From: Streptomyces sp. 846.5
Lineage (GTDB): Bacteria; Actinomycetota; Actinomycetes; Streptomycetales; Streptomycetaceae
Reading direction: 5' to 3'
Length of the DNA: 64,000 nucleotides
Assembly (NCBI RefSeq): GCF_004365705.1
Contig: NZ_SOBN01000004.1
Location: forward strand, 62,001 to 126,000
The notes under the pieces are model-generated. The model worked only from the letters and a program-made list of their open reading frames with translations. It did no database searches and was not told where the DNA came from. A program made the translations under genes and the position numbers. Shown here piece after piece: positions 9,780-26,076 of this stretch. Position 1 is the first letter of the stretch. Every line of letters begins with the position of its first letter.

Positions 9780-10826
9780 TCAGCGGACGGTGGCCGGCAG
9801 CAGGGTGCCGGTTCCGTACCGCTTGGTCCAGGCCGGCAGCTGATCGGTGCTGACGGCCTTCCAGAGCGCGGGCGTGCTGTTCGGGTTCAGCGTCAGCGCG
9901 TCCTGTCCGTCGACGGTCACGAACCGCCCGAGCGGCGCGCTCAGGTAGGTCACGTTGCCGGAGCCCAGGTCGTTCAGGCCCAGGGCGAGATCACGCAGTG
10001 CGCTGTTGGACAGCTGGTCGTCGACACTGACCGCCTTGCTCACTGCGTCCAGTATCCTGCCGAGCCCGAGCGGATTGGTCAGGGAGATCCGGCCCGACGT
10101 TTTGGCCATGAGTGCCCGCAGGAAGTTCTGCTGCCGTGCGATCCGGTCCAGGTCGCCGTTGGGCAGGCCGTAGCGCTGCCGTACGTAGGCGAGAGCTGTG
10201 GCGCCGTTCATCGTGTAAGTGCCGGTCGTCCAGTGGTGGTTCAGCTCGGGGTCGTAGGAGTTGTTCGGGATGGTGATCGTGACCCCGCCGACGGCGTCGG
10301 TGAGCGACCGGAAGCCGCTCCAGTCGATTGCGCCGAAGTGGTCGATCCTGATGCCGGTGAACTTCTCCACGGTCTCGATGAGCAGCGGCGGGCCGCCCCA
10401 GGAGAATGCCGCGTTGATCTTCGCCGAGCCGTGGCCGGGGATCGCCACCCAGGTGTCGCGTGGTATCGAGACCACATAGGTGTTCTTCATGTCAGTGGTC
10501 AGGTGCAGCAGCATGATGGTGTCGGTGCGCTGCGCCCCGTACACCCAGAGCCGCGCCTTGGCCGCTTTGCCGGTGGTCGGCAGATCCGACCGTGAGTCCA
10601 GCCCGACCAGGAGGAAGGTCATGGACTTCGTCTCCCCGGGCGGCTTTGCCGGGCGCTGTGAGGCAGGGAGGGTCGGCAGGGCGCCCGCGATGCGCGGCAC
10701 TTGGCCGGCGTAGTGGTTGGTGCCCCACCACAGGCCGCCCGCGCCCAGTACGAGCAGGCCGACCAGCGCGGCGAGCAGGGACAGGAAGATGCGTCGGCGG
10801 CGGTGCTGGGTGCGGTGGCGGAACAT
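9780..10826 (-). CDS. LCP-family glycopolymer-peptidoglycan ligase
   Basis: This 348-residue type II membrane protein has a basic start (RHRTQHRRRR), one membrane helix at ~13-35, and an extracytoplasmic LytR-CpsA-Psr domain. Family residues are visible: QRTDTIML (R100, D102), VVSIPRDTWV (R123) and YVRQRYGLPNGDLDRIARQQ. LCP proteins move lipid-linked polymers onto peptidoglycan outside the membrane. The start overlaps the stop of the dehydratase gene (TGATG), so it is the third gene of the operon 13623-9780. It is the best candidate for wall attachment of the polymer made by this cluster. Confidence 0.93.
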   Translation of the reverse strand: MFRHRTQHRRRRIFLSLLAALVGLLVLGAGGLWWGTNHYAGQVPRIAGALPTLPASQRPAKPPGETKSMTFLLVGLDSRSDLPTTGKAAKARLWVYGAQRTDTIMLLHLTTDMKNTYVVSIPRDTWVAIPGHGSAKINAAFSWGGPPLLIETVEKFTGIRIDHFGAIDWSGFRSLTDAVGGVTITIPNNSYDPELNHHWTTGTYTMNGATALAYVRQRYGLPNGDLDRIARQQNFLRALMAKTSGRISLTNPLGLGRILDAVSKAVSVDDQLSNSALRDLALGLNDLGSGNVTYLSAPLGRFVTVDGQDALTLNPNSTPALWKAVSTDQLPAWTKRYGTGTLLPATVR

Positions 10827-12379
10827 CAGAAGTCGTCCGGGTACGGGGCCGTCGGCACCAGGGGCGGGGCGGTGGTCGTGGATTTCGGGCTCAGGCCCGG
10901 GGCCTGGGCGGGGAAGCCCGGCAGCAGCCGGGCGAGCCTGCTGCGCACCTCGCGTGCGTCGTTGCGCTCTGCTGCGGCGTACAGGCCGGGGAGGCCGAGC
11001 GGCACATAGGACATGCTGTGCCGGTCGCCATGGGTGGCAGCGTGGATCCTGGAGTGCGGCGTGGGTCGGCGCTGCTCCCGCTCGGAGAAGAGCGACTCGT
11101 TCAGCTTCTCGCCCGGCCGAAGACCGGTGAACCGGATGGCCGGCTGCTCCACGTTCATCTGCTCGGCGAAGGCACGGACCAGATCCAGGATCCGCACCGG
11201 CTTGCCCATGTCCAGGACGAAGACCTCCCCGCCGGTGGCCATCCGGGAGGCCTCCAGCACCAGCCCGGCGGCCTCCTCGATGGTCATGAAGAACCGTGTC
11301 ATGTCCGGGTGGGTGACGGTCACCGGCTCCCCGGACCTCAGCTGCTGCGCCAGCACGTCGAGCAGTGAGCCCCGGCTGCCCAGCACATTGCCGAAGCGGA
11401 CGGCGGCGAAGACCGTCGGCGCCGAGTGCGGTGCCTGCACGATCACTTCGGCCAGCCGCTTGGTCGCCCCGAGGATCGAGATGGGGTCGGCTGCCTTGTC
11501 CGTGGAGATGAGGATGAACTTCTTGACGCCGGTCTTCATGGCGACTTGGGCCAGCTGGTCGGTACCGAGGACGTTGGACTTCACTCCCTCGCAGGGGTGG
11601 TGCTCCAGCATGGGGAGGTGTTTGTGGGCCGCCGCGTGGAAGACCACCTCGGGCCGCAGGTCCCGGAAAACCTGTTCGAGTCGGGCCCGGTCGCGGATGT
11701 CGGAGATCACGACGTCGTCGTCGTTCACGGCGGAGCCGTACAGCTCCAATTGCAGGCGGTGAAGGTTGGACTCGTCGTGGTCGAGCAGGAACAGTCGACT
11801 CGGACCGAAGCCGTAGACCTGACGGCACAGCTCGCTGCCGATCGACCCGCCGGCGCCGGTCACCAGGACCCGTCGTCCGGCGATGGTCCGCCGGGCCTCC
11901 GCGCTGACCACGTGCACCTCCTGGCGCCCGATCAGTCGGTTGACGTCCAGCGCGCGCAGGTCGCCGCCGACCACCTCACGGCGCAATGCCGCGATGAACG
12001 ACGGCAGGTAGCGGACGCTGGCCCCCGCCGCCGCACCGGCGGCTGCGACCTGCCGGAAGCGTTCGGCGGACAGGTCGGGGATCGCCACGACCACCGCCTC
12101 GACCCCGCGGGCGGAGACCACCGATTCGGTCTGTGCCAGTTCGCCCAGCAGTGGCAGCATGCTGTTGCCGGACTTGGACGGGTCGTCGTCGAGGAAGCCG
12201 ATCGGGGCCAGCCCGAATTCCGGCACGCGCAGCAGGTCGCGGGCGAGGGCCCAGCCGGCCTCGCCGGCTCCGACGATGAGCGTGCGCAGACCGACGCACG
12301 GCTGAGGCCGCGGCTTCGGCTTCGGCACGGGCCGTGCAGGCTGTGCAGGCTGTGCGGGCGTGGCCGGGTAGGTGGTCAT
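10826..12379 (-). CDS. CapD/FlaA1-like nucleotide-sugar 4,6-dehydratase
   Basis: This 517-residue protein has a Pro-rich head, a first Rossmann-like region (TLIVGAGEAGWALARDLL, a nucleotide-sensing CoA-binding-like fold), then the catalytic SDR domain with VTGAGGSIGSELCRQ. The active-site stretch is ISTDKAADPISILGATKR, the CapD variant in which the usual Tyr is replaced. The four N-terminal membrane helices of classical CapD/WbpM proteins are absent, so this is a soluble form. Expected chemistry is UDP-HexNAc 4,6-dehydration to a 4-keto-6-deoxy sugar. It overlaps the aminotransferase gene by 4 bp and feeds it directly. ATG 12379 was chosen as the only start consistent with the overlap. Confidence 0.9.
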   Translation of the reverse strand: MTTYPATPAQPAQPARPVPKPKPRPQPCVGLRTLIVGAGEAGWALARDLLRVPEFGLAPIGFLDDDPSKSGNSMLPLLGELAQTESVVSARGVEAVVVAIPDLSAERFRQVAAAGAAAGASVRYLPSFIAALRREVVGGDLRALDVNRLIGRQEVHVVSAEARRTIAGRRVLVTGAGGSIGSELCRQVYGFGPSRLFLLDHDESNLHRLQLELYGSAVNDDDVVISDIRDRARLEQVFRDLRPEVVFHAAAHKHLPMLEHHPCEGVKSNVLGTDQLAQVAMKTGVKKFILISTDKAADPISILGATKRLAEVIVQAPHSAPTVFAAVRFGNVLGSRGSLLDVLAQQLRSGEPVTVTHPDMTRFFMTIEEAAGLVLEASRMATGGEVFVLDMGKPVRILDLVRAFAEQMNVEQPAIRFTGLRPGEKLNESLFSEREQRRPTPHSRIHAATHGDRHSMSYVPLGLPGLYAAAERNDAREVRSRLARLLPGFPAQAPGLSPKSTTTAPPLVPTAPYPDDF

Positions 12380-13623
12380 GAGGAGTCCGCCTCCATTCGC
12401 GGTGCCGCTGCGGCACCGGCCTCCGCGCCTCGGGAGAGCCCCGCGAGCGCGTCGCAGACCCGGTCGACCTGGGCCTCGGTGAGCCCGGGGTGCAGCGGGA
12501 GCGAGAGCAGTTGTGGGAAGAGTTCGTCGGCTCCGGGCAGCCCGCTCGGCGGGCGCAGCGCGGTGCGCCGGAAATACCAGAGCTGGTGCAGCGGGATGAA
12601 GTGCACGGACGCGCCGATGCCCAGCTGGGACAGCCGTTCCAGCAGTTCGTCCCGGTGCAGCCCGTAGCCGTCCAGGACCCGGACCGCGTAGAGGTGCCAG
12701 GCGTGGCGGCCTTCGCCGTCGGCAGGAGTCGACGGCAGCACCAGACCCGGCACGGCCCGCAGCCGGGCCGTGTAGCGGGCGGCCAGAACCTCGCGCCGTT
12801 GCTGCCATTCGCTGAGGTGGCGCAGCTGTGCGCGCCCGATCGTCGCCTGAAGGTCGGTCATGTTGGCCTTGAGACCGGCGTCGTCGACCGTGTACTGCCA
12901 GCTGCCGCCGGGAAGGTGGCGTCGCCAGGCGTCCGCCGACATCCCGTGCAGTCTGGCCCGGCGGACCCAATCGGCGAGATCGTCGTCGTCGGTGGTCACC
13001 ATGCCGCCTTCGCCGATCGGCAGGTTCTTGGTGGCGTAGAAGCTGAAGCAGGAGGCCCGTGAGAGCGCCCCCACCGGGCGGTTGCCCAGGTAGGTGCCGA
13101 GAGCATGGGCGGCGTCCTCGACGACGCGGGTCAGCGGCAGGCCTGCGGCCTCGGCCAGCTCGTCGAGCGGCGCGGGGGCCCCGCCGTAGTGCATCACCAT
13201 CATCGCCCCCGGCGGCCCGCAGTCCTGGACCGCGCGACTGACCGTGGCCGCCGAGGGCATCCCCGTAGTCGGCTCGACATCGACCAGCAGCGGGCGCAGC
13301 CCCGCGTGCACCACTGCCTGGGCGGCGCCGCAGAACGTCAGCGTCGGGACCATGACGACGCTGCGCGGCGGCAGCCGCAGTGCCCGTAGCGCGAGTTCGA
13401 TGGCGGCGGTGCAGGAACTCACCGCCACCGCGTGCCGGGCCTCGACCCGGTCGGCGAACTCGCGCTCGAACAGCCCGGTCTGCGGACCGGCACTGACCCA
13501 ACCCGACTCCATCACCTGCAGCGCGGCCTCGCGGGCTTCCAGGCAGATCTCCGTGCGCGCGAACGGAACGGGGGCCTCGTCGGCCTCCGGTGACACCGGC
13601 TGGTGGAATGGCGTCCTGCGCAT
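12376..13623 (-). CDS. DegT/DnrJ/EryC1/StrS sugar aminotransferase
   Basis: This 415-residue PLP enzyme carries the family signature. SSCTAAIELALRAL binds the cofactor phosphate, VVEDAAHALG supplies the ring-binding Asp170, and SFYATKNLPIGEGG contains the Schiff-base Lys199. It would transfer an amino group to the 4-keto (or 3-keto) sugar made by the adjacent dehydratase. It is the first gene of the operon with the dehydratase and LCP protein, and is preceded by a GAGGAGG-type ribosome site. Its product is a natural substrate for the N-formyltransferase at 16108-17133. It is divergent from the lipoprotein gene, with ~225 bp between their starts. Confidence 0.92.
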   Translation of the reverse strand: MRRTPFHQPVSPEADEAPVPFARTEICLEAREAALQVMESGWVSAGPQTGLFEREFADRVEARHAVAVSSCTAAIELALRALRLPPRSVVMVPTLTFCGAAQAVVHAGLRPLLVDVEPTTGMPSAATVSRAVQDCGPPGAMMVMHYGGAPAPLDELAEAAGLPLTRVVEDAAHALGTYLGNRPVGALSRASCFSFYATKNLPIGEGGMVTTDDDDLADWVRRARLHGMSADAWRRHLPGGSWQYTVDDAGLKANMTDLQATIGRAQLRHLSEWQQRREVLAARYTARLRAVPGLVLPSTPADGEGRHAWHLYAVRVLDGYGLHRDELLERLSQLGIGASVHFIPLHQLWYFRRTALRPPSGLPGADELFPQLLSLPLHPGLTEAQVDRVCDALAGLSRGAEAGAAAAPRMEADSS

Positions 13624-13778: not shown

Positions 13779-13872
13779 GATCGGCTTGCCCAGCCCCCTC
13801 CGACCTGGCGTCAAAGAGCCGAGCACACAGTTCAGGAGGTGGTTCCGGGTGCGAGCTCTCGTGACCGGTGCG
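13779..13872 (+). promoter_or_regulatory. Duplicated leader, copy 1 (promoter/RBS/first codons)
   Basis: This segment is nearly identical to 26077-26165. Shared blocks are GACCTGGCGTCAAAG (one mismatch with GACCTAGCGTCAAAG) and a ~40-nt run starting at AGGAGGTGG, containing the GTG start and the first eight codons, with one mismatch. Between these blocks the copies differ. The conservation covers a ribosome site and coding start, and probably the promoter. Both copies drive rightward units of the glycan cluster. Confidence 0.78.
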
Positions 13873-14757
13873 TACCTCCGCAGGGTCGCCGTTCTGGCGG
13901 CGCTGGTGCTTCCCTTCGTCTCGGCCTGCGGCGATCCGCCCACGGCGGGCCTGCATCTGGCCGCCAACCAGAACTTCAGCCCCGGCGGCGACTTCCTGCC
14001 GGGCGAGCTGGGCTTCACCATGGCGGACGTGACCGGCCCGTCGGATCTCGTCCACCTGCCTGACGGGGTGCGGGCCCTGGTCTGGGTGGGCCGGTGCGAC
14101 GGCGTCACACCCGGGTTCACCGACGCGGTCCAGCCGTACCTGGATTCGTCGAAGGTGTTCGGGTACTACCTGATCGACGAACCGGACCCGACAGGCCGGT
14201 GGAGGCCCCTCTGCTCTCCGGCGAAGCTCGCCGCCGAGAGCGACTACCTGCATCAGCATTCCGTCGGGCGGAAGACATTCATGATCATGATGAATCTGGG
14301 CAGCCCTACCAGCCCCACCTACACCGACCGCGGCGCAAGCTACACCCCGGCCAACACGCACGTCGACCTGGTGGGTCTGGATCCCTACCCGTGCCGCAGC
14401 GAGCTGAACGGCTGCGACTACGCCGGCATCGGCCGTTACCTGCGAGCAGCTGAGGCGGGTGGGTGGGGAGTGGCATCCATTGTTCCGGTCTTCCAGGCCT
14501 TCGGGGGCGGCAACTGGGTGGACGCGGGAGGCGGGCGCTGGCAGCTACCCACCGCGGGCCAGGCCGCCACGATCCTGTCCACCTGGAACCGGCTGGTACC
14601 GAATCCGGTGTTCGACTATGCGTACAGCTGGGGCAGCCAGATGAACGACACAGCCCTGTCCGCTGCCCCGGCGTCACTGCGGCAGGTGTTCGCCGAGCAC
14701 AACCGTCAGCGCACCGGCCGGCAGACCGGCGCTGCCGCCTCGCCGAGCGCTCACTGA
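13849..14757 (+). CDS. Secreted lipoprotein, possible glycoside-hydrolase-like fold
   Basis: From the GTG at 13849 (AGGAGG nine bases upstream) this gives 302 residues with a lipobox: VLAALVLPFVSAC, lipidated Cys27. The mature protein has short beta/alpha-barrel-like text (GYYLIDEPDP, HVDLVGLDPYPC, DYAYSWGSQ) reminiscent of glycosidase-like barrels. DEP resembles a catalytic acid region, but no family is certain. The first eight codons (MRALVTGA) match those of the epimerase at 26142 and are not typical of a lipoprotein, so the signal looks chimeric. An alternative ATG at 13786 would place a 21-residue extension over the duplicated leader. It overlaps the sugar transferase gene tail to tail by 7 bp. 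A role in processing or binding the exported glycan is an inference. Confidence 0.75.
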   Translation: MRALVTGAYLRRVAVLAALVLPFVSACGDPPTAGLHLAANQNFSPGGDFLPGELGFTMADVTGPSDLVHLPDGVRALVWVGRCDGVTPGFTDAVQPYLDSSKVFGYYLIDEPDPTGRWRPLCSPAKLAAESDYLHQHSVGRKTFMIMMNLGSPTSPTYTDRGASYTPANTHVDLVGLDPYPCRSELNGCDYAGIGRYLRAAEAGGWGVASIVPVFQAFGGGNWVDAGGGRWQLPTAGQAATILSTWNRLVPNPVFDYAYSWGSQMNDTALSAAPASLRQVFAEHNRQRTGRQTGAAASPSAH

Positions 14758-15446
14758 TCTCCCGGACGGCCAGCGGGCCGGCCCAGGACGACGCCCGCGG
14801 CCCGGGCCAGCAGGCGCAGATCGGTGCCCAGCCTACGGTCCGCCAGATAGGCCCGATCCAGCGCCAACTTCGGGTGCAGCAGGCGCGCGGCGTAGTAGGC
14901 GTCCGGATCGGGCGCGCTGTCCAGTTCCGCGCTCTGCTCCGCGGCGAACAGCAGGGCGCCGGGCCCGAGAATGCCCGGGCGGACCCGGAGCATCTCCCGT
15001 TCCCGCGGCGTGTAGTACCGGAGGAAGCGTTCCACCTCGGGACGCGGTCCGATCAGCGTCATCTCGCCGCGGAGCAGGTTGACCAGCTGGGGCAGCTCGT
15101 CGAGCCGGGTCAGGCGCAGCAACCGACCCACGGTGGTGATCCGGGGATCGCCGGTTCCGCCCACGGCCGCGCCGATCCGGTCGGCGTCCACCACCATGGT
15201 GCGGAACTTCCAGATGGAGAACGGCTGTCCGTAGCGTCCGACGCGACGCTGCCGGTAGATCGCGGGACCACGGCAGGTGCACCGGACGGCCAGCGCCAGC
15301 AGGACCAGCAGCGGCAGCAGAGTCGGCAGCAGCAGCGCCGCGACGACGAGGTCCACGGCCCGCCGCAGCGTGGTGTCGGCACGCACCGTGTCCCCGGCCG
15401 GACTGTTCCGGGCCGGTTCGTGGACGATCGTCCAGGGGTCGGCCAT
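14751..15446 (-). CDS. Initiating sugar phosphotransferase (PF02397 type)
   Basis: This 231-residue membrane protein has one hydrophobic helix (LVVAALLLPTLLPLLVLLAL, residues ~33-52) followed by the cytoplasmic catalytic core. The core shows GPAIYRQRRVG, FSIWKFRTM, LRLTRLDELPQLVNLLRG and EMTLIGPRPE. It is the short form without the four-helix N-terminal domain of WbaP. It would transfer a sugar-1-phosphate to undecaprenyl phosphate and so start repeat-unit assembly. It is the last gene of the ten-gene operon, sharing one base with the deacetylase gene upstream. Confidence 0.93.
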   Translation of the reverse strand: MADPWTIVHEPARNSPAGDTVRADTTLRRAVDLVVAALLLPTLLPLLVLLALAVRCTCRGPAIYRQRRVGRYGQPFSIWKFRTMVVDADRIGAAVGGTGDPRITTVGRLLRLTRLDELPQLVNLLRGEMTLIGPRPEVERFLRYYTPREREMLRVRPGILGPGALLFAAEQSAELDSAPDPDAYYAARLLHPKLALDRAYLADRRLGTDLRLLARAAGVVLGRPAGRPGDQ

Positions 15447-16111
15447 CACCGCACCTCCCGTAGCAGTTGGAAGGGTTCCGCGGCGGCCCGGCCGATGCAG
15501 CTGCCCCAGTAGGCCGCGCGTTCGCGCAACGCGCGCAGCGACCGGGGGTGCGGGTACTCGCGCAGCTCGCTCTCGTAGCAGGCCATGGCCTCGATCTTGT
15601 CGTCCAGTGTGCCGGTGACGTCCACGAACTGCGTGGGCGTGAACGTGCCGCCGTTCAGCGGCCAGCCCCACTCGGTCGAGGAGGGCGTCTCGAAGACGGC
15701 GAAGCGGTGCAGGCCGGGCAGTGCGTAAGGTCGGCACGCCGTCCAGACCGCGCGCGCCGCCACCGCGTGGTCGGCGTTCGCGTCGCCCGGGAAGTGGGTG
15801 TAGACGATCTGCGGGCGCAGCATGTCCACCACCGCTTCCACCCGCGCCGTCACCTCGATCAGCGGCAGGGCGTCCAGCCGCTGATCCGGCAGTGAGAGCA
15901 GCTGGACCGAGGCCAGGCCGAGCACCTCGGCGGCCCGGTGCGCGCACTTGGCCAGCACCTCGGCCATGCCCTCCGCGTACCGGCTTGTCGCTCCGTCAGC
16001 CAGGATCACCGCGTGCACCTCGTCCCCGGAACGCGCGTGCCGGGCCAGCGTGGCGCCGGCGCCGAGCAGCTCGTCGTCCGGGTGCGCGGCTACCACCAGG
16101 ACGGTGTTCAT
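15446..16111 (-). CDS. PIG-L/LmbE-type deacetylase
   Basis: This 221-residue protein begins MNTVLVVAAHPDDELLGAG, with the zinc-binding AHPDDE motif at residues 9-14. The second metal site is THFPGDANADHAVAARA. Family members de-N-acetylate GlcNAc-type sugars, including nucleotide-linked or lipid-linked ones. Here it probably removes an N-acetyl group before or after sugar formylation. Its start overlaps the formyltransferase stop by 4 bp. Confidence 0.9.
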   Translation of the reverse strand: MNTVLVVAAHPDDELLGAGATLARHARSGDEVHAVILADGATSRYAEGMAEVLAKCAHRAAEVLGLASVQLLSLPDQRLDALPLIEVTARVEAVVDMLRPQIVYTHFPGDANADHAVAARAVWTACRPYALPGLHRFAVFETPSSTEWGWPLNGGTFTPTQFVDVTGTLDDKIEAMACYESELREYPHPRSLRALRERAAYWGSCIGRAAAEPFQLLREVR

Positions 16112-17133
16112 GCAGCCACCACCTCTGGCCTCGGTCCCTCGCCCCGCGCCCAGCGCGCGACCTCCGGGGGCACGGCGGCGAACCGGGCACCGGGTCCGAT
16201 CCCGGCGCGGCGGGACCAGGGCGCCGCCGGCTGCGGCGCTTCGCCGGGTGCGGACATGCTGGTGACGACGACGCTGCCGGAGTTCGCGGCAACGCGGAGA
16301 CCGGCCGGTTCGATCGCGAGCACCGAACCGGCGGGGCCGCAGGGCCCTGTGTCCGTCGGCACCAGAGTGTGCCAGATCATCAGCTGCCGGCCGTCGAGGT
16401 CGGTGAACGCGCCCGGGTAGGGCGTGGTGAGCGCGCGCACCCAGTCGTGCACCTGGCGGGCGGTCCGGGTCCAGTCCAAGACGCCCATCTCCGGGGTGCG
16501 ACGCAGCAGCGAATCACCCTGGCCGGGATCCTGCCGTCGGCGCGGTGCGGTGCCGTCCAGCAGCGCCGGCAGGTGCTCGACGAGCATCTCCGCGCCTGTC
16601 TCGGCGATCCGTTCGTAAACTGTGCCGCAGGTGTCCTCGGGACCGATGACCACCGATCGCTGGTCGACGATGCTCCCTGTGTCCACGCCGGGATCGAGAA
16701 GCATCATGGTGTCGCCGGTGAGCGTCTCGCCGCGCAGAATGGCCCAGTTGACGGGGGCGCGACCGCGATGGCGCGGCAGCAGCGAGGCGTGGAAGCCGAC
16801 GCAGCCGTGCCGGGGCACGGCCAGCAGCGCCTCGCCGATCAGCCGGGTCCAGCCGACCACGACGAGCAGGTCCGGTTCCAGCCCGCGGATCGTCGCCACC
16901 ATGGCGGGGGCGTTGACATCGCCGGAGCGCAGCACCGGCACCCCGGCGGCATCGGCGAGCGACGCAAGATCGGTCAGTCCCGAGAGGCGCCCGGCCTGGT
17001 CTTCCGATGGCGTGACGACTGCGGCGACGGTCACCTGATCGCAGCTCAGCAGCGCGGCCAGTGCGGGACGCGCCTCATGGACGGCGCCGATGAAGACGAC
17101 CCGGCCCACCGGAGCGGTGTGCAGTGCGGACAT
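16108..17133 (-). CDS. Formyltransferase-family protein, likely sugar N-formyltransferase
   Basis: This 341-residue protein resembles methionyl-tRNA formyltransferase and ArnA-type sugar formyltransferases. The core GFHASLLPRHRGRAPVNWAI contains catalytic His115, and the catalytic Asp151 is in GVDTGSI. The Asn that normally precedes the His by two residues is replaced by Gly113 (GFH for N-x-H). A C-terminal OB-like domain follows (residues ~210-300). Its place beside a dehydratase/aminotransferase pathway and a deacetylase points to N10-formyl-THF-dependent formylation of an amino sugar rather than of tRNA. It lies 10 bp downstream of the flippase gene. Confidence 0.86.
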   Translation of the reverse strand: MSALHTAPVGRVVFIGAVHEARPALAALLSCDQVTVAAVVTPSEDQAGRLSGLTDLASLADAAGVPVLRSGDVNAPAMVATIRGLEPDLLVVVGWTRLIGEALLAVPRHGCVGFHASLLPRHRGRAPVNWAILRGETLTGDTMMLLDPGVDTGSIVDQRSVVIGPEDTCGTVYERIAETGAEMLVEHLPALLDGTAPRRRQDPGQGDSLLRRTPEMGVLDWTRTARQVHDWVRALTTPYPGAFTDLDGRQLMIWHTLVPTDTGPCGPAGSVLAIEPAGLRVAANSGSVVVTSMSAPGEAPQPAAPWSRRAGIGPGARFAAVPPEVARWARGEGPRPEVVAA

Positions 17134-17143
17134 GGGTTACTCC

Positions 17144-18472
17144 TTAGCGTTCGGGCGTGCACGGGGCGGGGACCGCCGTCCCCGGAAGGACCGCCTGGCG
17201 GGCCAGGTTCCGGCTGATGGCGGTCAGCAGCCCGGTCGTGACCAGGTAGGCCGCGCTGGAGGCGACAGCCGCGCCGACCGCGCCGTGCCTGGGGATGAGC
17301 AGAATGTCCAGGACCACGGTGACGACCACTCCGGTGCCCATGCCCAAGGAGTTCGCGCCGGGTCGGCCGATCCCGCACAGATGCGCGGAGGAGACGGCGG
17401 CGGCGCCCTCCACCGCGAGGCCGACCAGCAGGATGCACGCGGGCAGCACCGCGGGTCGGAACGCGCTCCCGTACAGCACCGGCAGGCCGATCACCGAGGC
17501 GATGGCCACCAGCGGCGTCAGAGCGATGGTGCCGGCCAGGGCCCGGGGCCGCAGTCGGCGAGCGTCACGGCCGGCCTCGCCCGGCTGCTGCCGGGCGAAG
17601 CGCGGGTTCAGCACGTAGTTCAGCGCACTGGCCGGCAAGCGCATCAGTTCGGCGAACTTCGAGGCGACCGCGTAGACACCGAGGACGGCCGGGCCGGCCA
17701 GCACGCCGAGGATCACGAAGTCCAGCCGCAGGTTGATCAGCATGAGCAGGTTGCCGAGCTGGCCTCGGACCCCGTACTTCATCACGTCCGAGGCGATCGC
17801 GCCGGACGGACGGCCCCGGTCGCGGGCGAAGCCGGTGGCCGCCAGCCGCGCCAGGGCGGTGAGCGCCGCAGCCACCCCGCCACCGATCATGCCGGCCACC
17901 ACCGCGTCGATGCCGCGCAGACCGAGGCAGAGCGCCAACCCGTAGGCGGGCAGGAAGAGCAGCTCCTCGCAGACGATCACAAGGTTGGCGCCGCGCATGT
18001 CGGCCGCACCCTGGCAGCACGCCTTGCCCCAGACGGTGATCAGCTGGGTGGCGGCGGTGATCCCGATCAGTGCGACGACCCGCGAGGGAACGGCGGTGAA
18101 CAGCATCCGGTGCAGCAACGGAGTCCCCGCGAACCACAGGGCGGGACCGAGGACCGCTCCGCCGACGGCCATCAGCGCGAGGGTGGGCCGCAGCCGCCGA
18201 TCGCTGCCCCTGGAGGCCAGGAAGTACGCCGAGGAGACCGGCAGGCCACAGCTCACCACTGCGCCGAGAAGCCAGGGCAGGACCCGCGCCAGCGCGTACT
18301 CGCCCAGCACGGCGGCCCCGGACAGGCGGGCCACCAGCAGACTCGCCACCGACACGATCAGCAGCGCGGACCCCTGAGCCACCAGGTTGCCCACCACACT
18401 GCGGCGCCCGAGCACGGGGGCGTCGGCGCGTCCCTGCCCCTGAGGTGCGGCTCGGTAGCCGGTGGCGGTCAT
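17144..18472 (-). CDS. Wzx-like polysaccharide flippase
   Basis: This 442-residue protein has about twelve hydrophobic segments of the MATE/MVF type, starting VVGNLVAQGSALLIVSVASL. Internal features such as KYGVRGQLGNLLMLINLRLD are seen in O-antigen and teichuronic flippases. It should move undecaprenyl-PP-linked repeat units across the membrane. The ATG at 18472 overlaps the stop of the polymerase gene by 4 bp, which fixes the start; longer frames run into that gene. Confidence 0.92.
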   Translation of the reverse strand: MTATGYRAAPQGQGRADAPVLGRRSVVGNLVAQGSALLIVSVASLLVARLSGAAVLGEYALARVLPWLLGAVVSCGLPVSSAYFLASRGSDRRLRPTLALMAVGGAVLGPALWFAGTPLLHRMLFTAVPSRVVALIGITAATQLITVWGKACCQGAADMRGANLVIVCEELLFLPAYGLALCLGLRGIDAVVAGMIGGGVAAALTALARLAATGFARDRGRPSGAIASDVMKYGVRGQLGNLLMLINLRLDFVILGVLAGPAVLGVYAVASKFAELMRLPASALNYVLNPRFARQQPGEAGRDARRLRPRALAGTIALTPLVAIASVIGLPVLYGSAFRPAVLPACILLVGLAVEGAAAVSSAHLCGIGRPGANSLGMGTGVVVTVVLDILLIPRHGAVGAAVASSAAYLVTTGLLTAISRNLARQAVLPGTAVPAPCTPER

Positions 18473-19824
18473 GGCTGCGGCGCTTCCCCGCCGTCGCCCG
18501 GCGGGCGGACGGCGTCGGGGTGGTCCGGGTCCGGGACGGAGGCCAGCACCGCGACGAAGGCCAGCAGGATCCAGACGAAGCGAAAGTGCAGGACCTGGTA
18601 GTAGGCGCCGGCCACGCCCATCGCCAGCAGTGCCGCGACCAGCCCGGCGGGCCTGGGGACCTGCGCGGCGAAACCCTGGCCGGGCGGCGCCCGCAGCACC
18701 CGGCCGGACCGCAGGGCGGCGGTCAGCACCAGGGCCACGATACCGAGCACCCCGAGCGGGCCGCGTTCGGTGAGGGCCGCCAGATAGTCGTCGTGGGATT
18801 CCTTGGCGTACGGGTACTGCCGGTCGTACAGCAGCTGTTTGGTGGTGCGCGGTCCGCTGCCGAGCAGACCGTCGGAGTAGTACATCTGGAGCGACTCGTG
18901 GACGAGCGCGGACCGCTGGGACGTGCTGTTGTCGCTGCGGCCGAGAGAGTTGACCAGCAGCGGCTGTCCCGACTGCACGGCCCAGTGCTGGACCGTGCCG
19001 AACGACACCGTCTGCATCGCCGTCCCCGTGACCGTCCCGGTCACCAGTACGAATGCCAGGGCCGCGACCATCCCGTTCCTGCGCCAGATCGCCACGGCGG
19101 CGATGAAGGCCAGTCCGACCGCCAGTTCCAGCAGACCGCCGTTGGATTCGGAGAGTGCGAAAGCCCACAGCAACATCGCGTAGCCGAACCACCGCACCGG
19201 CGCGCGCCGTGGTCGCTTGGTGGCGAAGACCAGGAACAGCGAGACCACCCAGTAGGCGGCGGCATAGTTGGGATCGCCGAGGGTGAACAGCAGCCGGTTG
19301 CCCTCGGCGGCGGAGATCCCCTCGATGACGGAGATGTGAGCCAGCGAGGCGAGCACCAGCAAGGCCGCCCAGCCGATCGCCGAGCAGGCGAAGGTCGTGG
19401 TCAGCATGCGCAACACGTTCGGGCGGCGGGCGATGTTGTACAGCGCGACCGTCCAGGCGATCAGTGCCAGGTCCTGGACGAGCTGGAGCAGCGAGATGCC
19501 CGGCAGCGGGCCCACCAGCCCGGCGGCTGCGCCCCCGAGGATCAGCAGACCCATCGGCAGCACGTACGGGGCGCCGAGCCTCCGGCCGCTGGTGGCGGCC
19601 CATACCGCCACCAGTGCCAGCGTGCCCACGGTGAACAGGTCCACCGGCGAGGTATGGCCCGGACCGGTCGGCTGGAGGATCGGCTGGAAGGCCATCCCCA
19701 GACAGGCGACCCAGGCGGCGGTGCGCTCGGCGGTGCCCCGCCAGGCTCGCCTGCCGCTCGCGGCATCGGTCGCCGTGGGCGCCGGCCGGGCGACGGCGGG
19801 TCGCACGGTACCTGTGGCGATCAC
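18469..19824 (-). CDS. Wzy/O-antigen-ligase-like polymerase
   Basis: This 451-residue integral membrane protein has about twelve helices and one large external loop (residues ~270-340, containing SQRSALVHESLQMYYSDGLLG and AKESHDDYLAAL). The SHDDYL-type loop motif is characteristic of Wzy/WaaL-fold polymerases, which join repeat units outside the membrane. GTG 19824 overlaps the upstream kinase-like gene's stop (GTGA). The upstream in-frame extension to 19941 would overlap that gene further and is less likely. Confidence 0.88.
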   Translation of the reverse strand: MIATGTVRPAVARPAPTATDAASGRRAWRGTAERTAAWVACLGMAFQPILQPTGPGHTSPVDLFTVGTLALVAVWAATSGRRLGAPYVLPMGLLILGGAAAGLVGPLPGISLLQLVQDLALIAWTVALYNIARRPNVLRMLTTTFACSAIGWAALLVLASLAHISVIEGISAAEGNRLLFTLGDPNYAAAYWVVSLFLVFATKRPRRAPVRWFGYAMLLWAFALSESNGGLLELAVGLAFIAAVAIWRRNGMVAALAFVLVTGTVTGTAMQTVSFGTVQHWAVQSGQPLLVNSLGRSDNSTSQRSALVHESLQMYYSDGLLGSGPRTTKQLLYDRQYPYAKESHDDYLAALTERGPLGVLGIVALVLTAALRSGRVLRAPPGQGFAAQVPRPAGLVAALLAMGVAGAYYQVLHFRFVWILLAFVAVLASVPDPDHPDAVRPPGDGGEAPQP

Positions 19825-21101
19825 GGGGTCACCGCCGTGGAGAGCTGGTCGAAGACCCGGAGTTGTCGCTGGCGGAAGCCTTCGTCCGTGGCCTCCGCGG
19901 CGAGCGCGGCGACCTCGGCGAGGACGGCGTCGCGTCCGCATTCGGGGGGAAGGCCGAGGCGTGCCAGCCCGCGCCCGAGGTACTCCCGGACCAGGTCCGG
20001 GTACCAGCCGGCGCCGTCCAGCGCATAGGAGACCAGGGCGGCCGGATCACCGGCGACCAGTCCGGGATGACCCCGCACCCGATGCCCTGGCCGGGTGTGC
20101 CGGTCCAGGTAGTGCGAGTAGCTGAGTACGAAGCGGGCCAGGTCACGGGTCGGACTGCCGGCCCGCTCCGACCGTTCCCAGTCCACCACCCCACTGACGG
20201 CGCCCTGGCGGACCAGCACGTTGCCCGGCCAGAAGTCGCCGTGCACCGCGGTGCGCGGGGCGGTGTACCGGCCCAGCCTGTGCCGCAGCGCGATCAGCCG
20301 CGCGAGCAGGCCGGTTCCTCCGTCGGGCTCGGCAACGAGCCGGCGGGCGAAGGTGTCCACCAGCCCGGGAGCCAGGTCCAGCGGTGCCGTCCCGTCGGTC
20401 GTCGCGGACTGGAAGGCCGCGAGCCAGGCCTGTGCGGAGGAGAGATCGGCGCGTACCGTCGCCGCCCGCGCGGTGTGCCCGTGGCGGTGGTAGGCGACCA
20501 GCATCGGAGTGCCCGGTTGCGCGGTGGTCACCAGGGTGGGCAGCCCGGCGTGGACCATCAGCTCGACGACCTCCGGGACGGTCTTGCGCAGCACCCCGAG
20601 GGGCAGAGCGCCGACCCTGCGCAGCCGCTCGGCCTCGGCCAGCACCCGGGTGGCCGCGCCCGGTCCGGACGGCAGTTTCACCGCCAGGGTCGGCCATGGC
20701 TCGATGGGGCCGAACAACAGCAACAGCGTCCGGGCGTCCGGGTCGTGACTGTGCCGCAGGACCAGCAGCCGGGTGCCGTGGGCAGCGAGGAGATCGGTGA
20801 GCCGGCTCTCGTCCGGCCGCCGACGGTGCGCGGCCAGGAGCAGGTGCGGCATCAACCCCCACAGCGGGCGGACCCGGAGGATCTCCCGGGCGGCGGTGTA
20901 CGCCCAGTCCGGCACGGCACTGTGGGGCTGCGCCGCGAGCAGCGCGGTGCGTACATAGCGCAGCACCGGCGCCTCCGTGGCGGCGACCACCAGGGGCCGG
21001 CTGCGCGACGGCAGCGCCACGAAGCGCTGGTCCGTCGGCAGCAGGCCGCGCCACCGCTCCAGGTCGGATTCGACGTCGGATTCGACTGCACGGGAGGTCA
21101 T
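19821..21101 (-). CDS. APH/choline-kinase-like phosphotransferase
   Basis: This 426-residue protein has an N-terminal ~130-residue region of unknown fold followed by an APH-type kinase domain. AVKL (Lys142) would be the ATP lysine, EAER a candidate helix-C Glu, HGDFWPGNVLV (287-297) the catalytic loop, and GVVDWERSE the metal-binding Asp307. It is probably an active small-molecule or sugar kinase. In this operon it may phosphorylate a sugar, a repeat unit or a choline-like decoration; the substrate is unknown. It overlaps its neighbours on both sides by 4 bp. Confidence 0.8.
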   Translation of the reverse strand: MTSRAVESDVESDLERWRGLLPTDQRFVALPSRSRPLVVAATEAPVLRYVRTALLAAQPHSAVPDWAYTAAREILRVRPLWGLMPHLLLAAHRRRPDESRLTDLLAAHGTRLLVLRHSHDPDARTLLLLFGPIEPWPTLAVKLPSGPGAATRVLAEAERLRRVGALPLGVLRKTVPEVVELMVHAGLPTLVTTAQPGTPMLVAYHRHGHTARAATVRADLSSAQAWLAAFQSATTDGTAPLDLAPGLVDTFARRLVAEPDGGTGLLARLIALRHRLGRYTAPRTAVHGDFWPGNVLVRQGAVSGVVDWERSERAGSPTRDLARFVLSYSHYLDRHTRPGHRVRGHPGLVAGDPAALVSYALDGAGWYPDLVREYLGRGLARLGLPPECGRDAVLAEVAALAAEATDEGFRQRQLRVFDQLSTAVTP

Positions 21102-22543
21102 GTCAGCACCGCGAAGGGACGTAGCCGGGCGACCGGCCGGACCAGGCCGTTGCCGACCAGGATGGCCAGGGCCGCGTCGACCCCTCGGTCATCGAGCTGT
21201 GGGATCTCCTGCGGCGCGGCGTCGGTGTAGCCGTACCGCCGAGTGTGCCGCCGGTACGGGTCGTGGCCGGAGCGGCCGTCCCGGGCGAAGGCGCTGATGA
21301 TGCTGCCGGTGCCGTGGCAGGCGGTGTACAGGCTGCGGTGTGCCTGCGGCGCCGGTACGCACAGGAAGGACGAGGTGCGGTTGGTGCCGGGCACCAGCAG
21401 CGGTTGACCGGTCTCGGCGAAGGCGGGGTGACCGGCCATCAGCTCCGGGGTCCAGGCGCGTGCGGCGTTGTGCCGGTGCACATAGGCGGGCCCACCGTCG
21501 ACGGTCTCCTGGTACACCGAGTTGTGCGGCGAGTCGACCACCAGCCGCAGCCGCGCCCCGAGCGACTCGGACGCGTAGCCGCACAGCGAGGCGTAGGTGG
21601 CCAGCCGGTAGGCGAAGCCGTAGTTCATCGAAAGCCGCTGCGCCAGCACCATCCGGCGGCCTTCGTCCGAGTCGATCGGTACCGAGGGGCAGCCGGCCGT
21701 GAAGTACGCCTGGTACCGCTGCCGTGCCCGGGCCGGAGAGCGGGCGGCGAGGTGCGAGAGCGGCTTCTGCACCGCCATCTCCGCGCGGAGCAGGCGGGAG
21801 GCCGACTTGCGGCGTGCGTACAGCTCGCCGATCTGGCTGGTGAGCACGCCACCGCCGTTGTGGAACTGCAGGGTCACCTGGCCCTGGAACACCCCGAGCC
21901 GGCCGGCGATCTCCGGCTCGAACACCTCCTCCACCTCCTGGAGCTCCAGGAAGTGGGTGCTCGGTCCGATCGAGCCGAAGCGCAGCCGGGCCAGCTGCAC
22001 GCAGATCCAGGGCAGTTCGCGGCGCGCCCGGTGCGCCCCGCCGAACTCCTCCACCGGCAGCCGGCCGAACTCCTCGACCCGGTCCAGGTCGTGACGTTCC
22101 AGGCCGTACCGTTCGGCGGCGAAGTCGGCGCCCAGGACGGCGGCGCGCAGCACCTCGTCACGGCTGAGTTCGAACTTCCACCCGGGTGGGTTCGGGTAGC
22201 GTTCCCGGACCCGGCGGTAGAAGTCGGCGACTGCGGCGGCGCCGGGGCGTGCCGTGTCCAGCGTGGCCAGCGCCATACCACAGTTGAGCGCGGAGTCGGT
22301 GAGGGCGGGGCGGATCGCGTCCCGGGTCGCCACCGCGATGCTCGACGGCATCTCGGACTTCTCCTTGTGGCAGAAGTCCGGCAGCACGACCGGGGGCGCG
22401 GCGAGATCCAGGGTCGCGGTGCCGTCGCGAAGCCGGTCCAGCAGCGCCGGATCGGCGCGGGCGTCGGCGCTGTCGAACACGCTGAGGTCCGTCACCGCGT
22501 CGTCGGGCCGGTCTGCGGGGTGAGTGAACACGTCTATGCGCAT
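21098..22543 (-). CDS. Divergent RtcB-family protein inside a glycan operon
   Basis: This 481-residue protein aligns with the 3'-phosphate RNA ligase RtcB. LPDFCHKEKSEMPSSIAVAT matches the N-terminal PDvHxGxG region, and NCGM holds Cys88. THFLELQ holds His197 and Glu200, LQFHNGGG holds His228, SPHNSVYQE holds His340 and YVHRHNAARA the following strand. ACHGTGS holds His410, at the position that is guanylylated in RtcB. The Mn-binding set is therefore largely kept. The DIGCGM aspartate is Ala, the NHF asparagine is Thr, and the HRKG lysine is His. It overlaps both neighbouring genes, so it is translated as part of the glycan operon. No archease gene is nearby. Either an RNA repair enzyme has been recruited here or the fold has a new nucleotidyl-transfer role. 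Confidence 0.78.
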   Translation of the reverse strand: MRIDVFTHPADRPDDAVTDLSVFDSADARADPALLDRLRDGTATLDLAAPPVVLPDFCHKEKSEMPSSIAVATRDAIRPALTDSALNCGMALATLDTARPGAAAVADFYRRVRERYPNPPGWKFELSRDEVLRAAVLGADFAAERYGLERHDLDRVEEFGRLPVEEFGGAHRARRELPWICVQLARLRFGSIGPSTHFLELQEVEEVFEPEIAGRLGVFQGQVTLQFHNGGGVLTSQIGELYARRKSASRLLRAEMAVQKPLSHLAARSPARARQRYQAYFTAGCPSVPIDSDEGRRMVLAQRLSMNYGFAYRLATYASLCGYASESLGARLRLVVDSPHNSVYQETVDGGPAYVHRHNAARAWTPELMAGHPAFAETGQPLLVPGTNRTSSFLCVPAPQAHRSLYTACHGTGSIISAFARDGRSGHDPYRRHTRRYGYTDAAPQEIPQLDDRGVDAALAILVGNGLVRPVARLRPFAVLT

Positions 22544-23712
22544 GTCAGGTCCTCGTGATCGGCCTGCCGCCGGTCCGCCCGGACGGGCGCAGGGGCGTAG
22601 GCGGCCAGCAGGGTGTCGGCCAGTGCGCGCTCGGTGTAGCGGTCGTCGATCCGGGCGCGCGCGGCCGCTGCCATCCGGGCGGCCTCGTCCGGCCGGTCGA
22701 GCAGGTACCCGATCGCGGCCGCGAACAGGTCGGGGCGTTCCGGCGGCACCAGCAGCCCGGACTCACCCGGGCACACCACGTCCGGCACCGAGTTGACGGC
22801 GCTCGCCACCACCGGAATGCCGCAGACCATCGCTTCGACGATCGCCACCGGCAGCCCCTCGTAACGGCTCGGCAGCGCGAAGACGTCGAACGCCGGAAGC
22901 AGTTCCGGTACGTCCGGCCGCTCGCCCACCAGCAGCACGCGGGCCGTCGGCAGCGCGCGCTGCGCCTGCTCGCGTACCGCGGCCGCCAGCTCACCGCCGC
23001 CCACCCAGACACCGGTGACCTCGGGCCGGTCCAGCGCGGCCAGCGCGGCGACGAAGTGTTCCGGGGCCTTCTGGTAGGAGAGCCGGCCGACCGCGCCGAC
23101 CACGGACGCGGAGTCCGGCAGCCCCAGCATCCGCCGCGCGTGAGCCCGGGTCTGCTGCGATCGGGCCGTCGCGCCGGTGTGCACCGGAACGCCGATGGTG
23201 CGCACCCGCTCGGGCCTGATCAGTCCGCGCCGGACGGCCTCGACCGACACCGCCGTGCCGACGCACAGCGCCACGTCGGTGATGCGGCCGAGGCCACGTT
23301 CGATGCGTACGTAGGCCTCGCGGCGCAGCGGCGACTGGAACTCGTGGAACGGGAAGCCGTGGTAGGTGTGCACGATGCGCGGCACACCGGTGCGGTGCGC
23401 CGCCGTTCGCCCCACCGCGCCTGCCTTGGTGCTGTGGGTGTGCACGACGTCGAAGCTGCGGCGCTCGAACAGCGCGGTGAGACGGCGCAGCGCCCGCGCA
23501 TCGTCCAGGGGCGCGATGGGAGAGCGCAGCGAGGGCTCCAGCACCACCTCCAGGCCCGCGTCGGCGGCCTGGTCCAGGAGCCGGTCGCCGCTGCCTGCGA
23601 TGATCGTCACCTGGTAGATTTCCGGATCCAGCGCGCGGGCCCCACGCAGGGCCACCACCCCGGCCCCGGCCTGCATCCGGGTGATCACCGTGGCCACGCG
23701 CACCCGGGTCAT
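22534..23712 (-). CDS. Glycosyltransferase family 4
   Basis: This 392-residue GT-B enzyme has the N-terminal RVRVATVITRMQAGAG, the acceptor-side motif VVHTHSTKAGAVGRTAA, HTYHGFPFHEFQSPLRRE, then VGRLSYQKAPEHFVAAL and the donor-site SRYEGLPVAIVEAM. It is clearly paralogous to the GT4 at 27122-28369. It probably adds one residue of the repeat unit on the cytoplasmic face. It overlaps the RtcB-like gene by 10 bp and the HprK-like gene by 4 bp. Confidence 0.93.
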   Translation of the reverse strand: MTRVRVATVITRMQAGAGVVALRGARALDPEIYQVTIIAGSGDRLLDQAADAGLEVVLEPSLRSPIAPLDDARALRRLTALFERRSFDVVHTHSTKAGAVGRTAAHRTGVPRIVHTYHGFPFHEFQSPLRREAYVRIERGLGRITDVALCVGTAVSVEAVRRGLIRPERVRTIGVPVHTGATARSQQTRAHARRMLGLPDSASVVGAVGRLSYQKAPEHFVAALAALDRPEVTGVWVGGGELAAAVREQAQRALPTARVLLVGERPDVPELLPAFDVFALPSRYEGLPVAIVEAMVCGIPVVASAVNSVPDVVCPGESGLLVPPERPDLFAAAIGYLLDRPDEAARMAAAARARIDDRYTERALADTLLAAYAPAPVRADRRQADHEDLTCA

Positions 23713-24701
23713 GGGGTCACCGCCAGGGAGCATGCGAGCAGTTCGGCCAGACCGGCGCCGGGCGTGGCGCCGAGGACGATCTCGTAGGCGGGCAGCCGCT
23801 CGGCCAGGGTCTCGGCGATCGCGGCGACCGGTGGGTGGCTCGGGCCGATCCCGGTGCCCAGCGCGAGTGTGGCCGCGTACGGCCAGTACCGGCGCAGCTC
23901 GCCCGCCATATAGGTGCCGGTGGTCAGCGCGCGTGCCGCCGTGGCCGGGTCCAGCGGCGCGATCACGGGATGGTCCTGGTTCCCCCGGCGCAGCACGACC
24001 AGCCGGTCGGGGCACAGCGCATCGACCCGGCCGGGCAGCGACCGTTCGCTGCGGCCGTACGCCATCCGGCGTCCACCGCCGCCCTCCACCCGCACCGGCT
24101 CGACCAGGCCGTGTGCCCAGATCCCTTCACTGGCACAGAGGTTGTCCGAGCAGGCCACCTCGCCGGCGGCCACCGCCCGGAGCAGCAGCGTGGACCGGCC
24201 GATGCCGCCGGGTCCAGCCAGCAGGCAGGTCGCATCTCCCACCGTGACCGCCGCGGCGTGCAGCGGCACCCGGCCCCGGAGGCCGGCCCACCACAGCGCG
24301 GGGTACTGCACCAGCACCGCGCGCGCCAGCAGGTGGAAGCGGGAGGGCAGCGCCCGCGAGGCGAGCCGTTCCCGGACCGGCGGGCGCCAGCGGGCCTCCA
24401 CGCTCAGCCGCTCGCCGTCGGTGCGGAGACACAGGTCGAAGCCGCTGCCGGCGGCGTTGGTCAGCAGCACCGCGCCGCGTCGGAGGTAGGCGCCTCTGGT
24501 CAGCGGCTCCGCCCCGGACAGGTCGAAGCCGGTGCGGTCCGCGGAGACGACCACCTCGACGTCCGGCGGCTCGGCCCCGACCGGGTGCCAGGCGCCCGGG
24601 CACGCCTCGGCGAGCAGGCGCGCCAACCAGGGCTCCGAGCAGGACACCACCAGCACCTGCCCGGCCTGGAGCAGGGCCGCGCGCATCAGAACGGCGGTCA
24701 C
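23709..24701 (-). CDS. HprK-like kinase domain protein
   Basis: This 330-residue protein has an N-terminal ~140-residue domain of mixed strands and a C-terminal P-loop domain. VPLHAAAVTVGD leads into Walker A GPGGIGRST (163-171), and ACSDN follows as in HPr kinase/phosphorylase-related proteins. Short HprK-like kinases occur in several exopolysaccharide and peptide-modifying clusters, where substrates are mostly unknown. Here the partner could be a sugar, a lipid-linked intermediate or a neighbouring protein. It overlaps genes on both sides by 4 bp, so it belongs to the operon. Confidence 0.75.
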   Translation of the reverse strand: MTAVLMRAALLQAGQVLVVSCSEPWLARLLAEACPGAWHPVGAEPPDVEVVVSADRTGFDLSGAEPLTRGAYLRRGAVLLTNAAGSGFDLCLRTDGERLSVEARWRPPVRERLASRALPSRFHLLARAVLVQYPALWWAGLRGRVPLHAAAVTVGDATCLLAGPGGIGRSTLLLRAVAAGEVACSDNLCASEGIWAHGLVEPVRVEGGGGRRMAYGRSERSLPGRVDALCPDRLVVLRRGNQDHPVIAPLDPATAARALTTGTYMAGELRRYWPYAATLALGTGIGPSHPPVAAIAETLAERLPAYEIVLGATPGAGLAELLACSLAVTP

Positions 24702-25864
24702 GGCAGTCTCGATTCCTCGTAATGGACGCGCCTGCGGCTCCGGGAGGTACCGAGCACACCGATCGCGGGCCAGCCGGTAGCGGCGGTCAGATGGCGGATC
24801 CGTCTCGCCTCGCTGTCACGGGCCAGATCGGGGACGAGCACGAGCAGGCCGTGCCGGCACGAGTCGGTGACGTCGTCCACGTCGGACAGGGCGAGAACCC
24901 GGAGCGGACGCGGCAGGCCGGGATCGGCTGCCTTCAGGGCCGACAGCGCCTCCAGGGTCTGCGCCTGGCCGACCGGGGCCGGGCCGTGGGAGCCCCCCAC
25001 GGAGACGGGCACAATCGGACCACCGCCGGACGGACCTTTGCCGTTCCAGGTCGGCTGCTCCATCACTTCGGCCATCGGAGAGGAGCCGGACGTCAGGTGA
25101 TTCTCCAATTGGAGTGCAATGAGCGGTAGTTGACCGTTGAGGTCGGGACCTGTCAGGACGACGGTCTCGATTCTGCCGTGGGCGACGGCGCGCTTGGCAA
25201 CGACCAGCGTCTCGAGTGGAATCGAGAGCCGTGGCTGCTTCTTCCCACCCTGGAGCACGAGATGGCCGAGGAGCGGCGCGCCGATCTCGCGGCCGAAGGC
25301 GCCGGCGTCGGCGACCCGCGGCCGCACGACCTCCAGCACGGTGGCGACCAGCAGGCCGGCGACAAGGCCGAGCAGCGCACCCAGGCCGAGGTCGGTGCCC
25401 AACGACGCCCGCGCGGACTGCGCCCCGGACGGGAGCGAGACCACGGTCGCCGAGCCGTTGAGGAGGCTCACCAGATGGGGTGCGAGCGCGCTGTCGGTGG
25501 CGGTGGCCACCCGCGGATCGCGGTCGGTGACCGTGACGTTCAGCATCGCGGAGGCGCCGATCCGGGTGACGTCCACCTCGTGCACCATCTCGGCCACGGA
25601 CCTGTTCGTGATCTGGGCCTGCTGCAGTGCCTCCTGGACCGCAGTGGTGCTGGTCGCGAATCCCTGGGCCCGGTTGAGCACGGCATCCGCTTCGGTGGTC
25701 GTGCTCGGCGGCGTGCTCGATGCCTGGACGCGGGCGCTGGCGGTGTAGCCGGGTTTGCCGTTGACCTGCAGTGCACCGATGATCAGTACCGGCAGCAGGG
25801 TGAACAGCAGCAGCAGCCGCCAGTGACCGGTCACGATCCGGCGCAAGGCTTCATTGAGTTCCAT
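24698..25864 (-). CDS. Wzz-like chain-length/polysaccharide co-polymerase
   Basis: This 388-residue protein begins MELNEALRRIVTGHWRLLLL. It has a first helix at ~17-33, an extracytoplasmic alpha/beta domain (residues ~35-160), and a second helix LGLGALLGLVAGLLVATVLE near 170. A cytoplasmic domain of ~200 residues follows that resembles a BY-kinase-like fold, but no Walker A is visible, so it is probably not a tyrosine kinase. It likely sets polymer length with Wzy. The ATG at 25864 with GAGG upstream was preferred over a longer frame to 25897. It is the first gene of the ten-gene operon. Confidence 0.82.
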   Translation of the reverse strand: MELNEALRRIVTGHWRLLLLFTLLPVLIIGALQVNGKPGYTASARVQASSTPPSTTTEADAVLNRAQGFATSTTAVQEALQQAQITNRSVAEMVHEVDVTRIGASAMLNVTVTDRDPRVATATDSALAPHLVSLLNGSATVVSLPSGAQSARASLGTDLGLGALLGLVAGLLVATVLEVVRPRVADAGAFGREIGAPLLGHLVLQGGKKQPRLSIPLETLVVAKRAVAHGRIETVVLTGPDLNGQLPLIALQLENHLTSGSSPMAEVMEQPTWNGKGPSGGGPIVPVSVGGSHGPAPVGQAQTLEALSALKAADPGLPRPLRVLALSDVDDVTDSCRHGLLVLVPDLARDSEARRIRHLTAATGWPAIGVLGTSRSRRRVHYEESRLP

Positions 25865-26076
25865 CCGATGACCTCGAATCGGGGGCACGCCCCACACGCT
25901 TTCGCCGCTTCGCGACGAGCCTGCGGCGCGCAGGCGAGGAAGTTGTCAGCCATGCTCGCAGCGTGGTGCGGTGCTGTGCTCATACCGCGAGGCGAGATCC
26001 GACTAGTACATTTGCGTGAGCCCGGCGGACCTTCGGCTGTCCCGTGGATGACGTAGCCGATCTCGTGCTGCGACGG

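Follow-up and report, generated by a model that had tools for sequence, protein, structure and literature searches.

Proteins of the RtcB family are treated as ligases of RNA only, and automatic annotation gives the name RtcB also to a group of proteins encoded among glycan genes. One of these lies in the 64,000-nucleotide stretch of Streptomyces sp. 846.5 DNA that was analyzed (the window), and the locus raises the question of what an RtcB-like protein does in a polysaccharide operon. The preliminary description of the locus had the gene overlapping both of its neighbors, and it does so, by 10 nt with the GT4 glycosyltransferase gene and by 4 nt with the APH gene (Table 1); the ORF starts with ATG and its extent is exactly as described. 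The Pfam profile PF01139 matched residues 52-480 of the protein with 138.7 bits (curated cut-off 27), and the top PDB sequence matches were the RtcBs of Pyrococcus horikoshii and T. thermophilus. An AF2 model had a pLDDT of 88.9, and all 16 significant Foldseek matches of this model in the PDB were RtcBs, with E values from 3.6e-30 (4dwq) to 6e-23 and a TM of about 0.7. By profile and predicted fold the protein is a member of the RtcB family. It resembles canonical RtcBs (PF01139; P. horikoshii 1uc2 and 4dwq, human RTCB 7p3b) in fold over nearly the full length, at about 20% identity.

Table 1. Genes of the polysaccharide cluster in the window.
Product	Position	Strand	Evidence
LytR-CpsA-Psr (LCP) wall-glycopolymer transferase	9780..10826	-	PF03816 2.2e-46
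PglF/CapD-type UDP-sugar 4,6-dehydratase, start approximate	10826..12499	-	PF02719 4e-103
DegT/PglE-type sugar aminotransferase	12376..13623	-	PF01041 1.7e-100
Initiating sugar-1-phosphate transferase (Bac_transf)	14751..15449	-	PF02397 4.9e-49
PIG-L deacetylase	15446..16111	-	PF02585 9e-28
Formyltransferase, probably for amino-sugar	16108..17133	-	PF00551, PF02911
Wzx-type flippase	17144..18529	-	PF13440 1.3e-7
Wzy/O-antigen ligase-type polymerase	18469..19941	-	PF04932 1.1e-9
APH-fold kinase with N-terminal extension	19821..21101	-	PF01636 6.4e-16
RtcB-fold glycan-cluster protein, 481 aa (main subject)	21098..22543	-	PF01139 4.2e-40, AF2 model, residue table
GT4 glycosyltransferase	22534..23739	-	PF00534, PF13692; in 37/37 flanked clade loci
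HprK/PEPCK-superfamily P-loop kinase-like protein	23709..24701	-	AF2 and Foldseek; weak TIGR04249
Wzz-like chain-length protein	24698..25897	-	PF02706 E 0.0015, under curated cut-off; homologue in 36/37 flanked loci

The presence of the PglF, DegT, formyltransferase and PIG-L families suggests that the sugar made by the cluster is an N-formylated or deacetylated 4-amino-4,6-dideoxy sugar. For the formyltransferase, the NCBIfam PRK06988 and ArnA models outscored the methionyl-tRNA formyltransferase model, all of them staying under cut-off. Facing the operon, at 13786-14757 of the plus strand, lies a gene for a secreted, lipoprotein-like protein with no Pfam match; homologues were seen in about a dozen related clusters. 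The LCP gene at the end of the cluster suggests a polymer anchored to the cell wall, although such a gene was found in just five of 57 clade loci (the window, L020, L024, L026 and L027). A role of the RtcB-like protein as the wall-attachment ligase was considered and set aside, since in the window the LCP transferase makes it less needed; the rarity of LCP genes in the other loci limits this argument.

Known Wzx/Wzy clusters with PglF/PglE amino-dideoxy sugar genes share with this one the Bac_transf, GT4, flippase, polymerase, Wzz-like, 4,6-dehydratase and DegT genes. Unlike them, it has RtcB-like, HprK/PEPCK-like and APH-type genes added as constant parts. No paper placing RtcB in polysaccharide clusters was found in the open-licence literature searched.

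The RtcB-like protein belongs to a clade that is sharply separated from other RtcBs. In 297 genomes from across the phylum, the clade profile scored members at 687-812 bits and the next RtcB at no more than 105 bits, with nothing between. A maximum-likelihood tree of 49 rows split the clade off by a branch with 100/100 support and a stem length of 3.3, so that it falls outside the canonical RtcBs. In the same tree the canonical RtcB of the window's own genome formed a long branch of uncertain placement, which left the clade unaffected. A pattern scan in which each species was represented by a single genome found 52 orthologous loci of about 51-88% identity. The hosts include Streptomycetaceae, Pseudonocardiaceae, Kribbellaceae, Nocardioidaceae, Intrasporangiaceae, Micromonosporaceae, Streptosporangiaceae and other actinobacterial families, as well as MAGs labeled Chloroflexi, Dormibacterota, Thermoleophilia and, in one case, Acidobacteria. 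The window genome is related to Streptacidiphilus, with same-genus matches up to 93%, and clade loci are present in S. carbonis and S. jiangxiensis. An origin from a phage or mobile element was rejected: viral contigs contained no clade relatives, and the phage and plasmid matches were distant RtcBs of 24-29% identity. A defence system was rejected too, as PADLOC gave no match for the RtcB-like, APH, HprK-like, GT4 or Wzz-like proteins.

The linkage to glycan genes was analyzed with profiles built from the window neighbors, which were applied to 37 clade loci with 8.5 kb or more of sequence on either side (flanked loci) and, as controls, to 20 loci around canonical RtcBs. The GT4 gene was found in all 37 flanked loci, the HprK-like, APH kinase, PglF-type dehydratase and Wzz-like genes in 36 each, DegT in 35, Wzy in 32, Wzx in 27 and Bac_transf in 25. 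The controls yielded one weak GT4 match only. Because the seed profiles derive from the same loci, this contrast outweighs the absolute counts. The neighborhoods are not random; the Wzy and HprK-like genes on which the preliminary description had asked for a survey are present in 32 and 36 of them. Gene order differs among clusters: the gene before the RtcB-like one may be GT4, HprK-like, PglF or DegT. In every case it lies close by and on the same strand, which indicates that the linkage survives rearrangement.

Co-occurrence in genome samples gave a similar picture. Four genomes of the phylum sample had the RtcB-like gene, and the same four, with no others, gave a strong APH match. HprK-like genes were confined to these four; the two lacking one are incomplete MAGs. 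Only G362, in the class sample, had HprK-like and APH genes with no RtcB-like gene. Its contig of 5.5 kb ends before the expected RtcB position, and it is thus uninformative as an RtcB-less cluster. Another genome of that sample, G441, had the RtcB-like gene alone, on a 4.8-kb fragment. Overall, the separate clade and the constant glycan linkage agree with the earlier view that the protein is dedicated to a glycan operon and differs from the canonical RtcBs of RNA repair. Neither of the outcomes that the preliminary description had named as refuting it, placement among canonical RtcBs or random neighborhoods, was observed.

It is known that paralogous RtcB subfamilies can have a fixed neighbor, RtcB2-PrfH (TIGR03073, PRK09588) being another such case. 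The RtcB-like protein scored 40.9 bits with TIGR03073 and 63.8 bits with PRK09588, well below their cut-offs of 271.8 and 407, and no PrfH was present among its annotated neighbors.

To compare active sites, a residue table was made of 56 clade members and 39 other RtcBs in P. horikoshii numbering, with residue roles taken from PMC8668186, PMC10630183 and PMC10944509. Cys88, His197, His228, His340 and His410, all claimed earlier to be retained, aligned with P. horikoshii C98, H203, H234, H329 and H404. The metal-A ligands C98, H234 and H329, and also H203, are kept in every clade member covered at the position. The guanine contacts E206 and S385 (E200 and S392 in the window protein) and the guanylylated H404 are present in 55/55 covered members.

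Other positions have been replaced. The metal-B residue Asp95 is Ala or Ser in 55/55 covered members (Ala85 in the window protein), and the two-metal site D95/C98/H203/H234/H329 is thereby incomplete, with the Asp gone and the other four ligands kept. Lys351 is His in all covered members apart from two with Tyr (His358 in the window protein), and the HRKG motif reads HRHN, or HRYK in two members. Thus, of the three losses claimed in the preliminary description, those of the DIGCGM Asp and the HRKG Lys extend to the whole clade. The loss of the NHF Asn is confined to one subclade, to which the window protein (Thr196) belongs: position 202 is Asn in 40/55 covered members and Thr in 15/55. Three further clade-wide losses were found. 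Arg238 is replaced throughout the covered members (GSRG to GGG), Arg408 is T, S or A in all of them (CHGAGR to CHGxG followed by T, S or A), and the C-terminal Lys480 is H, T, N or S in 55/55, so that the guanine-contact set is incomplete as well. These five replacements, together with the glycan-cluster neighbors and the long separate branch, set the clade apart from canonical RtcBs.

The clade has also gained near-invariant residues of its own (H59, K60, E64, H264, H358 and N359), which argues that the function has changed and is not decaying. The dN/dS values of 0.11-0.32 obtained for the gene in four comparisons demonstrate purifying selection; with the invariant residues, they rule out a decaying pseudogene. 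The divergent members L136 and L137 (genomes G122 and G110) carry HRYK, SHG for CHG and QE for HK; all the old catalytic residues are kept in them and several of the new positions deviate. The HprK-like gene was not found on their short contigs.

These data make it very improbable that the protein is an RNA ligase merely located in a glycan cluster. It has the fold of the canonical enzymes and the His that is nucleotidylated in them, but conserved canonical residues are replaced in all covered members, and ligation by human RTCB needs all of the metal ligands (PMC10944509). Glycan genes constantly accompany the clade, and the window genome has a separate, second RtcB of canonical type that scores 410 bits with PF01139. 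Nor was an RNA substrate seen nearby: there are no tRNA genes in the window and no Rfam families in or near the cluster (8-30 kb). The protein is probably a relative within a known fold family that has taken a new role, and the data suggest that the RNA-repair fold has been reused to build surface sugars.

The known chemistry indicates what this role could be. RtcB forms His-GMP and transfers the GMP onto a 3'-phosphate, which thereby carries a pyrophosphate-linked G; it then joins a 5'-OH with loss of GMP (PMC8668186). In RTCB the alpha-phosphate is contacted by metal A (PMC10630183), while the counterparts of Asp95, Asn330 and Lys351 in the human enzyme bind the phosphate that originates from the leaving group (PMC10944509). 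Judged from the alignment, the half-site kept by the clade is the one predicted to bind the alpha-phosphate and carry the nucleotide, and the rebuilt part is the leaving-group side together with some of the contacts to base and RNA. The first two RtcB steps require no RNA as such, only a nucleotide and a phosphate monoester, and the clade could apply them to a glycan.

We therefore tentatively propose, with a probability of about 0.4, that the protein is a neofunctionalized metalloenzyme of the Wzx/Wzy pathway, one that forms a His-nucleotidyl intermediate with the help of a metal and has a phosphorylated sugar or a lipid-linked glycan as its substrate. Cys88, His228 and His340 would hold a divalent metal that positions the alpha-phosphate of the nucleotide, and His410 would accept the nucleotidyl group. 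The group would then be passed to the phosphate of the sugar or lipid-linked glycan, for which the APH-type kinase would be the likely phosphate source, to give a pyrophosphate-linked nucleotide. The product could be a nucleotide-sugar; it could equally be an activated glycan-ppN, with the same bond order as RNA-3'pp5'G, that is attacked by a hydroxyl to form a glycan phosphodiester, and the sequence fits either. Such a non-RNA RtcB enzyme, activating phosphorylated sugars or glycans through its His-nucleotidyl intermediate, would operate in a polysaccharide system conserved in Actinomycetota, Chloroflexota and Dormibacterota. GalT-type enzymes carry a covalent His-UMP, and NDP-sugar pyrophosphorylases make nucleotide-sugars. 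With these the proposed enzyme would share chemistry only, by functional analogy, as the folds are unrelated. If the proposal is true, the clade, which several phyla have fixed in a glycan pathway and whose active site is systematically rebuilt, is an RtcB fold with a non-RNA substrate. It would then show what the half-site of metal A and His is capable of by itself, and would indicate a step in the assembly of surface polysaccharides that is as yet undescribed.

Several observations count against this nucleotidyl model or restrict it. Every covered member lacks Asp95 and Lys480, which disfavors unchanged GTP chemistry, and the loss of Lys480 in particular weakens the case for guanine and leaves the nucleobase open. 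Human RTCB requires all five metal ligands, its D119A variant showing weak guanylylation and no RNA ligation (PMC10944509). The D119A result, from a change that mimics the loss of Asp95, is consistent with the nucleotidyl model, yet warns that activity may be low without compensation. The APH kinase matched no sugar-1-kinase in the PDB, and at one locus, L017, no APH gene was detected near the RtcB-like gene. For wall attachment, the window already encodes the LCP transferase.

Two other readings are serious rivals. The loss of Asp95, Lys351 and Lys480 in all covered members, and the two kinase-like genes as constant partners, would also suit a catalytically silent or sensory protein that binds nucleotide and metal and acts as a regulator or scaffold, either for one of the kinase-like partners (HprK/PEPCK-like or APH-type) or for the Wzx/Wzy machinery; as described in PMC9650030, E. 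coli RtcAB bind the CARF domain of RtcR independently of catalysis. We consider this unlikely, because seven catalytic residues never vary among members from several phyla that share about 50% identity, where pseudoenzymes usually lose some, and because new near-invariant polar residues have appeared at the site. A metal-dependent phosphohydrolase or phosphodiesterase with no nucleotidyl intermediate, for example one that removes a phosphate or a cyclic phosphate group carried by a glycan or nucleotide-sugar, is likewise doubtful. It would accord with invariant metal-A ligands and H197 next to changed leaving-group and nucleobase residues, and with the 2',3'-cyclic phosphodiesterase activity ascribed to E. 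coli RtcB (cited through PMC10630183). However, a plain hydrolase would need none of His410, E200 and S392, which are invariant in 55/55 covered members.

Of the two kinase-like partners, the APH protein keeps the invariant kinase residues K142, E156, H287-G-D289, N294 and D307, and its gene is often the next recognized one downstream of the RtcB-like gene. Its PDB matches were antibiotic hydroxyl kinases (O-phosphotransferases), with no sugar-1-kinase among them. In many loci a separate ORF of 137-145 aa with no Pfam match precedes the APH gene (L029 10949-11362, L045 15145-15582, L064 11399-11818, L035 11389-11817); by eye, it resembles the N-terminal extension of the window APH protein. The HprK-like model had a pLDDT of 91.5 (AF2), with Foldseek E values of 9e-8 for PEPCK and 7e-5 for HprK. 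In the window protein the Walker-A Lys is replaced by Arg (GPGGIGRST), as it is in the close relatives L021, L022, L026 and L048; most others keep GKS or GKT.

Additional genes were seen in some clusters. In one arrangement a large protein with PKD and right-handed beta-helix regions is encoded between the RtcB-like and Wzz-like genes (L057 11371-15597), and it occupies similar positions in other Kribbella and Nocardioides loci. In a cluster of 12 loci, a metallo-beta-lactamase-fold and Rieske protein with an SCP2-like domain (L064 17220-19052) adjoins the glycan genes.
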